Assembly: GCF_003254525.1 (NCBI RefSeq)
Contig: NZ_QFYS01000002.1
Span: 124,001 to 188,000, forward strand
DNA: 64,000 nt
Direction: 5' to 3'
DNA from: Phenylobacterium kunshanense
Lineage (GTDB): Bacteria > Pseudomonadota > Alphaproteobacteria > Caulobacterales > Caulobacteraceae
Shown: one piece after another, positions 54,250-59,157 of the stretch
Position numbering within the stretch: position 1 is the first letter of the stretch
Layout: every line of letters starts with the position of its first letter
Made by a program: the position numbers and the translations under genes
Notes under the pieces: model-generated
Told to the model about the DNA's origin: nothing
The model's database searches: none
Seen by the model: the letters and a program-made list of their open reading frames with translations, nothing else

Positions 54250-55791
54250 ATGGCGGCGCGGGTGGTGACCCTGGCCTTCAGCGGCGTGGATTGCGTGCGT
54301 GTGGAGGTGGAGGTCCAGTTCACCCGCGGCGACTCGGCCTTCATCCTCGTCGGGCTGGGCGACAAGGCCGTGGCCGAGAGCCGCGAGCGGGTGCGGGCCG
54401 CCTTCACCGGACTGGGGCTGGCGCTACCCGCCAAGCGGATCATCGCGAACCTCGCCCCGGCCGACCTTCCCAAGGTGGGCAGTCACTACGACCTGCCGAT
54501 CGCCCTGGCGGTGATGGCCGGCATGGGGATCATCCCCCCGGATGCGCTGGAAGGCTGGGCGGCCATGGGCGAACTGTCGCTGGATGGCCGGATCGTGCCG
54601 GTGGCCGGCGCCTTGCCCGCCGCGGTCGCCGCCGGTGGCCTGGGTCTGGGCCTGATCTGCCCTGAGGCCTGCGGGCCGGAGGCGGCGTGGGCGGGCGATA
54701 CCCGGGTGCTGGCGGCGCCGTCGCTGATCGCGCTGGTCAACCACTTCCGCGGAACGCAGATGCTCGGGACGCCGAAGCCCGGCGACCTCCTCGACGACGA
54801 ACGGGTCCCCGACCTGCGGGATGTGAAGGGCCAGGAGAACGCCAAGCGGGCGCTGGAGATCGCGGCGGCGGGCGGCCACAACCTCTGCTTCATCGGGCCG
54901 CCAGGCTCGGGCAAGTCCATGATGGCCGCGCGCCTGCCGGGCCTCCTGCCGGCGCTGACGCCTGCCGAGCTTCTTGAGACCTCGATGGTCCACTCCATCG
55001 CGGGTCTCATCGCCCGCGGCCAGCTCAGCCGCGCCCGGCCGTTCCGGGCGCCGCACCACTCCGCCAGCATGGCCGCGCTCACCGGCGGCGGCCTGAAGGC
55101 CAAGCCGGGCGAGGTGAGCTTGGCGCACAACGGAGTCCTCTTCCTGGATGAGCTGCCCGAGTTCGGGGTGCAGGCGCTGGATTCCCTGCGGCAGCCCCTG
55201 GAGACGGGCGAGGTGGTGGTGGCGCGGGCCAACGCCCACGTGCGCTATCCGGCCCGGTTCCAGCTCGTGGCGGCGATGAACCCCTGCCGCTGCGGCCACG
55301 GCGGGCCGGGCCGGGGCGCCTGCGGTCGGGCGCCGCGCTGCCAGACGGACTACCAGGGGCGGATATCCGGCCCCCTGATGGACCGCATCGACCTGCAGGT
55401 GGAGGTCCCGCCGGTGACCGCCGCGGACCTTGCCCTGCCGCCGCCGTCCGAAGGCACCGCGGAGGCCGCCGCAAGGGTCTCTGCGGCCAGGTCGCGGCAG
55501 GTGGAGCGGGCTGTGGGGATTTCCGGGGCGGCCCCGCTGAACGCCCAGGCCGAGGGCGACTTCCTGGAAAGGGCCGCGGACCTGGCCCCGGACGCCCGGG
55601 CGCTGCTGACCCGCGCCGCCGAGGCCGGGGGCCTGTCGGCCCGCGGCTGGACCCGGACCCTCCGCCTCGCGCGCACCATCGCCGACCTGGAGGAGTCGGG
55701 CCCGGTTCGGCGCGTGCACGTGGCCGAGGCGCTGATCTATCGGCGCGTGGCGCCCGGCGCCGCGCTGGGCGTGTCGTCGGTGTCGGCGTAG
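54250..55791 (+). CDS. ComM/YifB-family Mg-chelatase-like AAA+ ATPase
   Basis: AAA+ protein of 513 aa linked in other bacteria to branch migration of DNA during natural transformation (ComM) or called YifB. It has an N-terminal LonB-like substrate part (VEVQFTRGDSAFILVGLGDKAVAESRERVRAAF), Walker A FIGPPGSGKSMMAARLPGLLPAL, Walker B GVLFLDELPEFGVQALD, sensor motif and a C-terminal zinc-like MNPCRCGHGGPG. ATG 54250. A DnaA box is 30 bases upstream. Its 3' end overlaps the convergent hypothetical gene by 55 bases. Confidence 0.93.
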   Translation: MAARVVTLAFSGVDCVRVEVEVQFTRGDSAFILVGLGDKAVAESRERVRAAFTGLGLALPAKRIIANLAPADLPKVGSHYDLPIALAVMAGMGIIPPDALEGWAAMGELSLDGRIVPVAGALPAAVAAGGLGLGLICPEACGPEAAWAGDTRVLAAPSLIALVNHFRGTQMLGTPKPGDLLDDERVPDLRDVKGQENAKRALEIAAAGGHNLCFIGPPGSGKSMMAARLPGLLPALTPAELLETSMVHSIAGLIARGQLSRARPFRAPHHSASMAALTGGGLKAKPGEVSLAHNGVLFLDELPEFGVQALDSLRQPLETGEVVVARANAHVRYPARFQLVAAMNPCRCGHGGPGRGACGRAPRCQTDYQGRISGPLMDRIDLQVEVPPVTAADLALPPPSEGTAEAAARVSAARSRQVERAVGISGAAPLNAQAEGDFLERAADLAPDARALLTRAAEAGGLSARGWTRTLRLARTIADLEESGPVRRVHVAEALIYRRVAPGAALGVSSVSA

Positions 55792-56189
55792 CGCGGCGCG
55801 GTCCAGGCCGCATAGCCGACGACCAGCAGGGTCAGGTAGTTGAACACCAGCGCCGCGGTCAGGTAGGCCCACCCGCTGACGGTCGAATCCAGAGCATGGG
55901 CCAGGTGGGTCACGACGGCGAGAAGCTGAAAGCCCGTGGCGAACAGCGGCCAGTAGCGACGGCTCCGCAGGGCGATCCACAGGAGGACAGCCAGCAGGGA
56001 AAAGTCGATGATCAGCACCGCCCATTGGGTGTCATCGCTGCGAGCCCTGAACACGACAAGCGTAAGCGCCCACGTCGCCAGCTCTGCGGCGGCTGCGAGC
56101 CGCTCTTCGTCGCGACCGCGCCACACAGCTATGGCGCAGACCGTCATCAGGACGGTCGGCCAGACCCACACCGGCAGCTGATAGGACAA
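55737..56189 (-). CDS. Hypothetical four-helix membrane protein
   Basis: A 150-aa membrane protein with about four hydrophobic segments: VWVWPTVLMTVCAIAVW (6-22), LATWALTLVVF (37-47), WAVLIIDFSLLAVLLWIAL (56-74) and GWAYLTAALVFNYLTLLVVGYAAW (105-128). I do not recognise a family. Its last 55 bases overlap the comM 3' end on the other strand. The start is ATG 56189, with a rho-independent terminator for the upstream unit right before it. G/C at third positions is weaker than in the neighbours, so it may be a young or poorly conserved gene. Confidence 0.62.
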   Translation of the reverse strand: MSYQLPVWVWPTVLMTVCAIAVWRGRDEERLAAAAELATWALTLVVFRARSDDTQWAVLIIDFSLLAVLLWIALRSRRYWPLFATGFQLLAVVTHLAHALDSTVSGWAYLTAALVFNYLTLLVVGYAAWTAPRYADTDDTPSAAPGATRR

Positions 56190-56264: not shown

Positions 56265-56627
56265 CTATGATGCTACGCGCAGGTTGCGCAGCCGCACCCG
56301 TGTAGTCTCCAGACCCTCCGGCGGGGGCTTCTCGCCGCCGTCGCCGTTCATCTTCACGGCGCCGAGGCCGATCTGGCCCTGTACGACGCTGAGCTCCTTG
56401 TGCGTCTCGACGATGGCGCGACGGGCTTCCGCGAGCGCCATGATCGCCTGGCTGGCGCGCTCCACGGCATCCTGGCCGATGAGGGCGGACGCGCCCGCGG
56501 CCTTGCGCAGCGACGGCATCACCCCGGTCAGGTGGGCGGTCTTGGCGAGGGCCGCATCGATCGCGGCCTCGGCTTCGAAGAGGGCGCCGGCGACTTGCTC
56601 GGCCGCCAGGCGGCGTTCTTTGAGCAT
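56265..56627 (-). CDS. Hypothetical helical protein in the LuxR-HTH unit
   Basis: A 120-aa soluble, mostly helical protein: AAEQVAGALFEAEAAIDAALAKTAHLTGVMPSLRKAAGASALIGQDAVERASQAIMALAEARRAIVETHKELSVVQGQIGLGAVKMNGDG. I recall proteins of this shape next to small LuxR-type HTH genes in sphingomonads and Caulobacteraceae, but no function. It follows the HTH/transmembrane gene by 68 bases on the same strand. ATG 56627 has a GAGAGAA site. High G/C at third codon positions supports it. A rho-independent terminator follows. Confidence 0.78.
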   Translation of the reverse strand: MLKERRLAAEQVAGALFEAEAAIDAALAKTAHLTGVMPSLRKAAGASALIGQDAVERASQAIMALAEARRAIVETHKELSVVQGQIGLGAVKMNGDGGEKPPPEGLETTRVRLRNLRVAS

Positions 56628-56695: not shown

Positions 56696-57448
56696 TCAGG
56701 CCTTTAGTAAACTCGCCGCCAGGTCGTTCAGGGCGTGCAGCCCCGCCAGCATGCCCCCGAAGGCGAGGGCCGTGGCGATGGCGATGCCGACGATCGCTCC
56801 GAGCCTGGCGGTCGGGCTCAGTCGGTTCCGGTGGAGGTCGGGTCGGACTCGCCCTTGAAGTTCTCGTCCAACAGGACCCAGGTCAGGCAGAGCACTTCCC
56901 TGAGCACCATCTCCGGCGGCTTGAAGGGGGCCAGCTTCCGGGTCGCGGAAACCAGGTGCCTCGCCATGTCCGCCTGGGCGGGAGTCGCCGCGAGATCGAC
57001 GAGCTGCCGCTCGAGCTGCGTCCAGGAGAAGCTGGGGATCAGTTCCTCCCGCCTCGCCAGAGCCGGCCACTTCGCCTCGAAGTCGTCGATCTCCCGGCGC
57101 AGGCGCAGCGCCCGGCCCACCACTGCTCTGTTCTCGAAGTTCGGCAACTCGCCCATCGGATACTCCCTCGATTGCGGGATCATCCGGCCAGTTTCCGCCT
57201 GCGGTGTCTGTCCTGATCGTGTCCTGTCCTGACGCAGTCAGGACAGCGCCCGGGGCCCGGTCGCGAAGCAGCTTCGCCGCCTGGAACCGGTCGTCGACTC
57301 CCAGCTTCCGGCGGGCGCGGTCGCAGTAGGTGTCGACCGACGTCTTCGACATCCCGAGCTCTCGGGCGATCTGCTTGGAGCTGAGGTGCTGGTCGACAAG
57401 GCGCAGGCACTCTCGCTCGCGCTGCGTGAGTAGGTCGACAGGGTTCAT
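56696..57448 (-). CDS. LuxR-type HTH protein with C-terminal transmembrane segment
   Basis: A 250-codon frame whose two ends look real. Residues 1-65 form a LuxR/FixJ HTH: LLTQRERECLRLVDQHLSSKQIARELGMSKTSVDTY, with RRKLGVDDRFQAAKLL. Residues about 217-245 form a membrane helix (LGAIVGIAIATALAFGGMLAG). This HTH-linker-TM plan is known in sphingomonads. The middle third (about residues 95-210) has poor third-position G/C and the composition of an out-of-frame translation: another gene is read there in the next frame (56818-57156). ATG 57448, GGGGGG site. It may be expressed through a nested gene or frameshifting. Confidence 0.62.
   Translation of the reverse strand: MNPVDLLTQRERECLRLVDQHLSSKQIARELGMSKTSVDTYCDRARRKLGVDDRFQAAKLLRDRAPGAVLTASGQDTIRTDTAGGNWPDDPAIEGVSDGRVAELREQSSGGPGAAPAPGDRRLRGEVAGSGEAGGTDPQLLLDAARAAARRSRGDSRPGGHGEAPGFRDPEAGPLQAAGDGAQGSALPDLGPVGRELQGRVRPDLHRNRLSPTARLGAIVGIAIATALAFGGMLAGLHALNDLAASLLKA
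56818..57156 (-). CDS. Hypothetical protein nested out of frame inside the LuxR-type gene
   Basis: A 112-aa protein beginning MGELPNFENRAVVGRALRLR with helices such as EIDDFEAKWPALARREELI and QADMARHLVSATRKLAPF. An AGGGAG site lies seven bases before ATG 57156, and almost all third codon positions are G or C, so this frame is the coding one here. A TM-less cytosolic protein of unknown family, fully nested in the larger LuxR-type frame, read in the next frame. An in-frame ATG upstream at 57183 is less likely. It could also be joined to the HTH part by frameshifting. Confidence 0.7.
   Translation of the reverse strand: MGELPNFENRAVVGRALRLRREIDDFEAKWPALARREELIPSFSWTQLERQLVDLAATPAQADMARHLVSATRKLAPFKPPEMVLREVLCLTWVLLDENFKGESDPTSTGTD
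57224..57246. promoter_or_regulatory. 10-bp palindrome with repeated TGTCCTG units
   Basis: CTGTCCTGAC-GCA-GTCAGGACAG is a perfect inverted repeat inside the HTH coding frame, next to two further TGTCCTG copies (about 57207-57228). It lies just upstream of the nested gene start, where the coding frame switches. It could be an operator, an RNA hairpin that promotes frameshifting, or both. Confidence 0.5.
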
Positions 57449-57612: not shown

Positions 57613-59157
57613 ATGCGCAGACCGACCCGCCCACTCTCCGACCGCCGCCCCACCCGTGCGCAGATCAGCGCCGAGCAGCTCGCGTCGTTGAGCCACGAAT
57701 TCCGCACGCCCCTGAACGGCGTCCTGGGCATGGCGCGCCTGCTGCAGGGCACCAAGCTGACGGCCGAGCAGCGCGCCTACGTCACGGCGCTCCACGACAG
57801 CGGCCAGCACCTGCTGACCCTCGTCAACGACGTGCTGGACTTCGCCAAGCTCGGCGCCGGCCGCGTCGAACTGCATCCTGCCCCCATGGAACTCGAGGGC
57901 CTGCTCCAGGGCGTCTCGGAGCTGTTGAGCCCGCGCGCCTCCGAAAAGGGCCTCGAGATCGCCTGGGCCGCGCCGGCCGCGCCCGTCCAGGTCCACGCCG
58001 ACGAGGGTCGCCTGCGCCAGATCCTCCTCAACTTCGCCGGCAACGCCGTGAAGTTCACCAAGGAGGGCGGCGTCCTCATCACGGTTGCGGCGCCCGAGCC
58101 CGGGCGCCTGAGGTTCGTGGTGGACGACACCGGGCCCGGCGTTTCCGCCCCCGACCGCGACCGCATCTTCGAGGCCTTCGCCCAGGCCGACCAGGCCGAC
58201 GCCGATCTTGGCGGCGCCGGCCTCGGCCTCGCCATCGCCCGCCGGCTGGCTCGCGCCATGGGCGGCGAAGTCGGCGTCGACAGCGCGCCAGGCGGCGGCG
58301 CCCGATTCTGGTTCGAGGCGGCGCTTCCCGCCGTCGCCGGCCCGGCTCCCCAACAGTCGCTCGCTGGCCGGACGGTCGGCGTCGCCTCCCCCAACCCGAT
58401 GGTGCGCGAGGGCGCGCGCCAGCAGATCGAGGCGTCTGGGGGCGTGGCCGTCGTGACGGCCACCCTCGCGGAGTCGATCGCGCGCACGAAGCCCGGCGAC
58501 GTGGTCCTGGTCGACGCCAGCCTCGCTGGAGAGACCGGCGCCCTGCGCCCGCCCCTGCAGCGGCCGGCGATCATCCTGCTGGCGCCCGAAGAGCGTGACC
58601 GCATCGCCCGCTATCGCCGCGCGGGATTCGCCGGGTACCTCATCAAGCCGCTGCGGCGCGCCTCGGTGGCCGAGCGAGTGCTGATCGCCAGCGCAGGCGG
58701 TCGCGCCGCCGCCGAACCCCCGCGGGAGGACGAGCGCATCGCGACCGCCGCCGCCCCGGGCGCCCGCGTGCTGCTGGTCGAGGACAATCCGATCAACGCC
58801 CTGCTCGCCAAGGCCCTGCTGACCCGCGAGGGCTGCGAGGTGGAGCACGCGATCGGCGGCGAGGAGGCCCTGGCCGCGTGCGAGGTCAGCCAGTTCAGCC
58901 TGATCCTGATGGACATGCGCATGCCCGGGCTCTCCGGCGAAGAGACGGCGCGACGGCTGCGGGCCAACGGCGTGAAGACGCCGATCGTCGCCCTGACGGC
59001 CAACGCCTTCGAGGACGACCGCCACGCCTGCCTGGCCGCGGGCATGGACGACTTCATGGTCAAGCCGCTGTCGCCAGACGCCCTGCGCGCCGCCCTGGCC
59101 CGCTGGGCCAAGCCGACCCGCTGGACGAAGACCCCGGCGCGCGCCAAGTTCGCCTGA
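57613..59157 (+). CDS. ShkA-like c-di-GMP-responsive hybrid histidine kinase
   Basis: Soluble kinase of 514 aa: HisKA with His28 (LASLSHEFRTPLNGVLG), HATPase (NFAGNAVKFTKEGG, DDTGPGVSAPDRD, GGAGLGLAI), a pseudo-receiver (about 250-365) and a receiver with Asp434 (LILMDMRMP). In the pseudo-receiver Arg328, Tyr342, Ile344, Pro346, Arg348 and then D-E-R from Asp373 match, at a constant offset of four, the c-di-GMP ligands and DDR linker that I recall for Caulobacter ShkA (Tyr338 and so on; phospho-Asp430). ShkA feeds TacA in stalk and cell-cycle control. A CtrA-like TTGA-N7-TTAAG lies at 57572-57587. ATG 57613. Confidence 0.9.
   Translation: MRRPTRPLSDRRPTRAQISAEQLASLSHEFRTPLNGVLGMARLLQGTKLTAEQRAYVTALHDSGQHLLTLVNDVLDFAKLGAGRVELHPAPMELEGLLQGVSELLSPRASEKGLEIAWAAPAAPVQVHADEGRLRQILLNFAGNAVKFTKEGGVLITVAAPEPGRLRFVVDDTGPGVSAPDRDRIFEAFAQADQADADLGGAGLGLAIARRLARAMGGEVGVDSAPGGGARFWFEAALPAVAGPAPQQSLAGRTVGVASPNPMVREGARQQIEASGGVAVVTATLAESIARTKPGDVVLVDASLAGETGALRPPLQRPAIILLAPEERDRIARYRRAGFAGYLIKPLRRASVAERVLIASAGGRAAAEPPREDERIATAAAPGARVLLVEDNPINALLAKALLTREGCEVEHAIGGEEALAACEVSQFSLILMDMRMPGLSGEETARRLRANGVKTPIVALTANAFEDDRHACLAAGMDDFMVKPLSPDALRAALARWAKPTRWTKTPARAKFA

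Follow-up and report, generated by a model that had tools for sequence, protein, structure and literature searches.

Does one stretch of a bacterial chromosome code for two proteins in two frames of the same strand? Outside viruses, long gene overlaps are a disputed subject, and the bacterial cases reported so far are mostly young or rest on expression data. The locus considered here lies in a 64,000-nucleotide stretch of the Phenylobacterium kunshanense genome (contig NZ_QFYS01000002.1, positions 124,001 to 188,000), hereafter the window, within which all positions are counted. An earlier note had described a frame that runs from a helix-turn-helix (HTH) through poor codons to a membrane helix, with a second gene in the next frame, and had offered true dual coding or programmed frameshifting as explanations. 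All the features described are present, on the minus strand. We conclude, with a probability of about 0.9, that the same DNA encodes two proteins, A and, nested within its frame, B. The inner reading frame lies wholly inside the outer one, the inner gene is conserved and has its own start, and the outer frame is open beyond chance, as in a nested same-strand pair.

The A/B pair offers a test case for the birth of new proteins by overprinting and for their persistence, because it combines retention across a family and in paralogues with measurable avoidance of stop codons and with a polarity supplied by a relative of the operon that has no B. There is a practical aspect as well. Annotation programs are described as disallowing long overlaps (PMC8665328), and in the account of an annotation clean-up of Caulobacter crescentus genes were retained by their peak of third-position GC and lack of overlap (PMC3951458); rules of this sort would drop one of the A/B proteins.

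Layout of the locus

Gene A occupies positions 56696..57448 of the minus strand, from an ATG at 57448 to a stop codon at 56696-56698, and encodes 250 amino acids. Its HTH domain (residues 6-59; 57272..57433, minus strand) is of the LuxR/GerE type and passes the curated threshold of the Pfam family PF00196 (GerE) with 51.5 bits against a cut-off of 23.5 (E 7.9e-14). A linker of about 150 residues follows, and the protein ends with a membrane helix at about residues 216-240 (56729..56803, minus strand), which is predicted from hydropathy and a profile only. This architecture suggests a protein that binds DNA while anchored in the membrane.

Gene B is nested in the linker. It runs on the same strand at 56818..57156, from an ATG at 57156 to a TGA at 56818-56820, wholly within frame A and in frame +1 relative to it, and encodes 112 amino acids. 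A ribosome-binding motif, GAGGGAG (57163..57169, minus strand), ends six bases 5' of the B ATG and contains the AGGGAG that the earlier note had assigned to B. The TGA of B overlaps a leucine codon of A, CTG (56818..56821, minus strand), in an R-N-x-L motif 5' of the membrane helix, and this leucine is found at the same place in the listed loci of the genus.

Third-position GC in the window is 0.89 over the HTH in frame A, 0.92 in frame B against 0.46 in frame A over the overlap, and 0.90 in frame A over the membrane part, which bears out the description of B as nearly all G/C, and frame A there as close to half A/T, at third positions. The means over 81 loci are similar (HTH 0.84, overlap 0.86 in frame B and 0.48 in frame A, membrane part 0.83). 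At third positions, A over B does not have the composition of a normal gene, which counts against dual coding.

Two small genes follow A on the minus strand. Gene D (56265..56627, 120 amino acids), directly 3' of A, encodes a conserved small protein that is also found in an outgroup family without B. Gene E (55737..56189), after D, encodes a small hydrophobic protein of 150 amino acids that has no Pfam family; by eye, a gene similar to E comes after D in several Caulobacter loci. On the other side, a divergent gene for a hybrid histidine kinase (HisKA, HATPase_c and receiver domains; 57613-59157) adjoins gene A.

Gene B as a conserved gene

Homologues of B are present in 28 of 35 genomes of the same genus, the genome of the window not being counted. 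Of the genomes sampled from the family, 89 of 199 have one, spread over 10 of 22 genera. No homologue was seen in 24 other genomes of the order. A profile search of the class, with the best 12 candidates at most per genome, found B in at least two of 385 genomes, both of them Caulobacteraceae, and plasmids and phages gave zero matches. The ten best named loci, mostly from Phenylobacterium, are 86-91% identical in B, and Caulobacter stands lower in the ranking. Across 56 aligned sequences identity falls to 27%, and W45, R73, E87 and D97 are invariant.

The start signal of B is also shared. In 72 of 85 loci at least one start codon of frame B has a GGAG, GAGG or AGGA motif before it, the motif test having failed in the other 13; over the same stretch, 84 of 283 start codons in frame B are preceded by such a motif, compared with 8 of 93 in the two remaining frames. 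Its conservation, its coding composition and, in most loci, a start motif of its own mark B as a real gene, judged from sequence.

An AlphaFold model of B is mostly helical, with a mean pLDDT of 83.2. The model matched no PDB structure at E <= 0.001, and among 260 aligned chains the best Z-score was a middling 6.5 over 61 residues, from which we draw no conclusion about the fold. A sequence search of the PDB returned nothing at E <= 0.1, and the B of the window belongs to no known family in Pfam, NCBIfam or PHROG. A match to Wzy_C_2 in one of the 56 aligned members (E 0.0064) was taken as chance.

Recurrence of the nested layout

The layout was followed over 94 loci, made up of the loci from the B homologue search, 40 regions picked from the family hit list and eight further copies; L002 (a weak match with no HTH) and L030 (broken) were dropped, and the end of B in L010 was set by hand. 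In 91 of the 94, frame A continues without a break across B and then encodes a membrane-like helix; B lies in phase A+1 in 92. The distance from the aligned HTH to the start of B takes 30 different values between 60 and 130 codons in the first 86 loci, measured from aligned rather than proven starts, and the phase is common to 85 of them. The A-B pair is kept in eight genera of Caulobacteraceae, as counted by genus label, as well as in paralogous copies, and the extra Caulobacter copies L266-L270 have the same layout. It is this conservation over many loci, and not the openness of one, that excludes chance.

Could B be a by-product and not a gene, or the layout an error of assembly? Many of the genomes are drafts, and there is a frame break in three of the 94 loci, between HTH and B in L056 and L252 and near the end of B in L087. 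In L056 the HTH and B share one frame, but a stop codon intervenes; L030, outside the set, is broken as well. Neither reading accounts for a layout that recurs in the remaining 91 loci or for a B that has coding composition and mostly its own start motif and keeps four invariant residues down to 27% identity, and we consider both extremely improbable. The check that the earlier note had proposed, a search of homologues for a single frame through all three parts or for indels, was run over the 94 loci, and the nested gene stands.

A separate observation concerns L010 (G015:C40), where B contains an in-frame TAG and frame A is intact; here B alone may have been lost naturally, or the assembly may be at fault.

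Is frame A read through B?

That frame A stays open over B is by itself weak evidence, because the first codon position of A coincides with the GC-rich third position of B. Stretches of 112 codons taken from ordinary genes are open in the corresponding frame in 608 of 966 cases among flanking genes and in 114 of 227 among genes of the window. We therefore compared stop codons with their expected number after shuffling synonymous codons of B within each locus. Over 57 non-redundant loci, frame A contains no stop within B where 94.7 are expected, and the third frame contains 222 against an expectation of 202.1. General avoidance of stops in ordinary genes exists but is far from complete: their corresponding frame holds 104 stops against 166.0 expected in one set and 380 against 557.2 in another, or 0.63-0.68 of the shuffle expectation, and at this ordinary-gene density 33-38 frame-A stops would be expected in 54 loci. 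The codons of B tell the same story from another side. Before AA, AG or GA, where a T would complete a frame-A stop, T-ending codons occur in 0 of 399 cases and C-ending codons in 609 of 2110 (54 loci, the contrast having been run on B loci only); in the ten loci below 65% identity the counts are 0 of 88 and 101 of 383. The shuffle test excluded L010, L056, L087, L031, L088 and L085, and also L078 and L084, which have an upstream stop in the aligned stretch; the 88% filter was applied there to equal-length pairs only, and the set for the T/C contrast was filtered by alignments. Exact p-values would be unsafe because the loci are related. Since the stops fall so far short of what ordinary genes show, we take frame A to be read through B.

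This result bears directly on programmed frameshifting, the alternative that the earlier note had set beside dual coding. Ribosomes would pass from the HTH into B by a +1 shift and from B into the membrane part by a -1 shift, so that a single HTH-B-TM protein is made and frame A inside B is untranslated. Such a mechanism, too, needs the fixed phase of HTH, B and membrane part (92/94), and the poor third positions of frame A over B speak for it. However, frame-A stops inside B would then be harmless, yet none is seen in 57 loci; B mostly has a start motif of its own; frame A alone already connects the HTH with the membrane helix; and the outgroup described below joins the two through an ordinary linker without B. 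HTH, B and membrane part are fused in one frame in none of the 94 loci. Frameshifting as the source of the layout is thus very unlikely, and the data do not support this part of the earlier proposal.

It might also be asked whether HTH, B and a membrane peptide are three separate genes whose frames happen to coincide, frame A over B being an accident of high GC. Chance openness is common, as the 608 of 966 control stretches illustrate, and some ATG, GTG or TTG is present in frame A near the B stop in 52 of 82 loci. The absence of a frame-A start near the B stop, which had been reported for the window, holds there (zero ATG, GTG or TTG from -90 to +30 bases around the B stop) and in 30 of 82 loci, the window included, but does not extend to the other 52, which have one or more, often GTG or TTG. 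These candidate starts recur at +30, within the helix, and at -81 from the B stop in several Caulobacter loci; their places nevertheless differ among the 52 loci, and the membrane part has no conserved start. Moreover, the phase holds across many HTH-B spacings, and stops are far scarcer than in ordinary genes. Three separate genes therefore have only a very small chance of being the right description, and we return to A as one continuous protein with B nested in it.

Does the amino acid sequence of A matter over B? Most sites that are silent in B alter the amino acid of A. With stops ignored and the pairs binned by divergence, beginning with the most diverged, the similarity in frame A minus that in the third frame is -0.116, -0.074, -0.009, +0.029 and +0.114 BLOSUM units, and against the shuffled expectation the excess in frame A is no greater than that in the third frame in four of the five identity bins. 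Because only the closest pairs lean towards A, we claim no amino acid constraint on A over B. An apparent amino acid excess of frame A over the third frame, obtained earlier, was dropped, since stops had been scored in it. Apart from staying open, the linker over B seems to be free in sequence, in the manner of a tether. Dual coding with a free linker, the other half of the earlier proposal, thus agrees with the data on all three counts: no frame-A stops in 57 loci, no clear constraint on A beyond that exerted by B, and a start motif for B in most loci.

An outgroup without B and the origin of the overlap

The earlier note had placed proteins with an HTH, a linker and a membrane helix in sphingomonads and Caulobacteraceae, and they are indeed present in another family of the class, f17, which we take to be the sphingomonads (as we take genus g13 to be Brevundimonas), where they serve as an outgroup. 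In this family 38 of 59 genomes match in a search with the A profile. We examined 31 HTH frames, 30 of f17 and L173 of Caulobacteraceae. A hydrophobic stretch follows the HTH in 27 of them, and a few have a further domain behind it. The HTH is of the same type as in A, and ten frames match the membrane profile of A (E from 0.00085 to 4e-14), sharing its end with the RND-L motif and the helix; several show an R-N-D-L motif. Unlike A, these proteins have an ordinary linker of varied length in which no B was found: the B profile gave no match at E <= 1 in the loci of the 31 frames, and the +1 frame of the linker contains at least one stop in 20 of 27 cases. The remaining seven linkers have none, a point against our main reading.

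Gene D links the two families. In 13 of the 31 frames its start lies 36-126 bases past A, the nine copies that were aligned are 35-63% identical to the D of the window, and in a sample of the class it was detected in 6 of 337 genomes, all in f17 or Caulobacteraceae. For D itself, Pfam families gave weak matches only (best E 0.0011), and GCS2, matched in 5 of 24 members with a best E of 0.0026, was likewise set aside. Copies of D also occur elsewhere (for example G000:C22:76393-76680), some of them without an adjoining A. Within Caulobacteraceae, L243 (G083:C1) has a gene for an HTH, a short linker and a membrane helix, followed by D, without B.

A locus orthologous to A but lacking B thus exists outside the group, and B is limited to one clade. 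Because the second family has the HTH-linker-membrane protein and D without B, the sequences make it most likely that this arrangement is the older state and that B was overprinted on it in one family, presumably in the stem of Caulobacteraceae. A loss of B in the other family is possible and is less simple.

Known systems

For CCNA_00832 of Caulobacter crescentus, Schrader et al. (2014) report a transcript start inside the gene, together with a start codon in the +2 frame, and the legend to their Figure 4E gives an 804-nt and a 360-nt coding sequence with LC-MS peptides for both (PMC4117421). Is this the same gene pair? Four Caulobacter loci (L059, L060, L061 and L067) allow an A of 804 nt, with its stop, and a B of 360 nt, without its stop. 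CCNA_00835 is named as a flagellin (PMC4551563) and CCNA_00830 as a putative beta-galactosidase (PMC9007349). Four Caulobacter genomes (L158, L055/L163, L165 and L275) have flagellin-like genes in the vicinity of A-B, although these appear in just one of 12 fetched 20-kb regions, and a Glyco_hydro_42/35 protein is encoded about 8 kb from A-B in one locus (L278). CCNA_00832 is therefore likely to be the orthologue of A/B. We infer this from sizes and neighbours rather than from sequence, and the orthology stays at that strength because the gene order differs from the numbering. By analogy with this probable orthologue, both proteins are presumably made in P. kunshanense as well.

In the parts of the 2014 paper that deal with the gene, the case is framed as a choice of transcription start in one species, and the HTH and membrane layout, the relatives and the origin do not come up (PMC4117421). 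Among open PMC articles, this was the one found to name CCNA_00832, and none was found that pairs Phenylobacterium with overlapping genes.

In layout the pair can be likened to the spanin genes Rz/Rz1 of phage lambda, where the inner gene is also contained entirely in the outer one, in its +1 frame, and where silent stretches of one protein are described as lying opposite sensitive parts of the other (PMC5295617). Rz and Rz1 are phage lysis proteins, whereas A/B is a regulator locus of the chromosome, and its outgroup has no B. Overprinted genes reported from Escherichia coli resemble B in that a second protein is encoded in another frame of a gene that is older (PMC4683798, PMC5810103). However, laoB is antiparallel and B lies on the same strand, and the title of one of these reports speaks of 'recent origin' (PMC4683798), whereas B is spread over a family.

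A model for the two proteins

How would the two proteins be made from one locus, and what might they do? In the reading that we prefer, frame A would be translated from its own ATG straight to its stop, giving an HTH, a linker and a membrane anchor. The translation of B would be a separate event that begins at its own start, behind its own ribosome-binding site, within the linker sequence and gives a small helical protein. The linker over B seems to need only to stay open, which is how it could host B: a second gene could live there because the sequence of a tether hardly matters. From the gene order, B and D are possible partners of A, and the three may form a regulatory unit that works at the membrane.

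An inverted repeat between HTH and B

Within the coding sequence of A, between the HTH and B, lies a perfect dyad, GTCCTGA-N5-TCAGGAC (TGTCCTGA-N5-TCAGGACA; 57226..57244). A further copy of TCAGGACA follows it, and TGTCCCGA/TCGGGACA occur in some relatives. A long inverted repeat stands out in the HTH-B spacer of 10 of 11 Phenylobacterium loci tested but, at P <= 0.05, of 1 of 16 others, and because of this last figure we do not claim a family-wide element. In 1 of 46 loci of the genus, half-sites of the dyad are found in the 250 bases that precede A.

Since the inner gene of C. crescentus has an internal transcript start, it is conceivable that the dyad is a putative operator for an internal promoter; that it is a putative hairpin acting on the translation of B is equally possible. 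A fuller scenario, in which a helical B was overprinted before the radiation of Caulobacteraceae and carried along by duplications of the whole locus, and in which A acts on the dyad in its own gene and thereby drives an internal promoter of B, strikes us as unlikely when taken as a whole. Other dyads are seen in the same spacer, such as TGACACG-N3-CGTGTCA in L076 and L079, and paired changes can be made out by eye in the spacer inverted repeat of some relatives.
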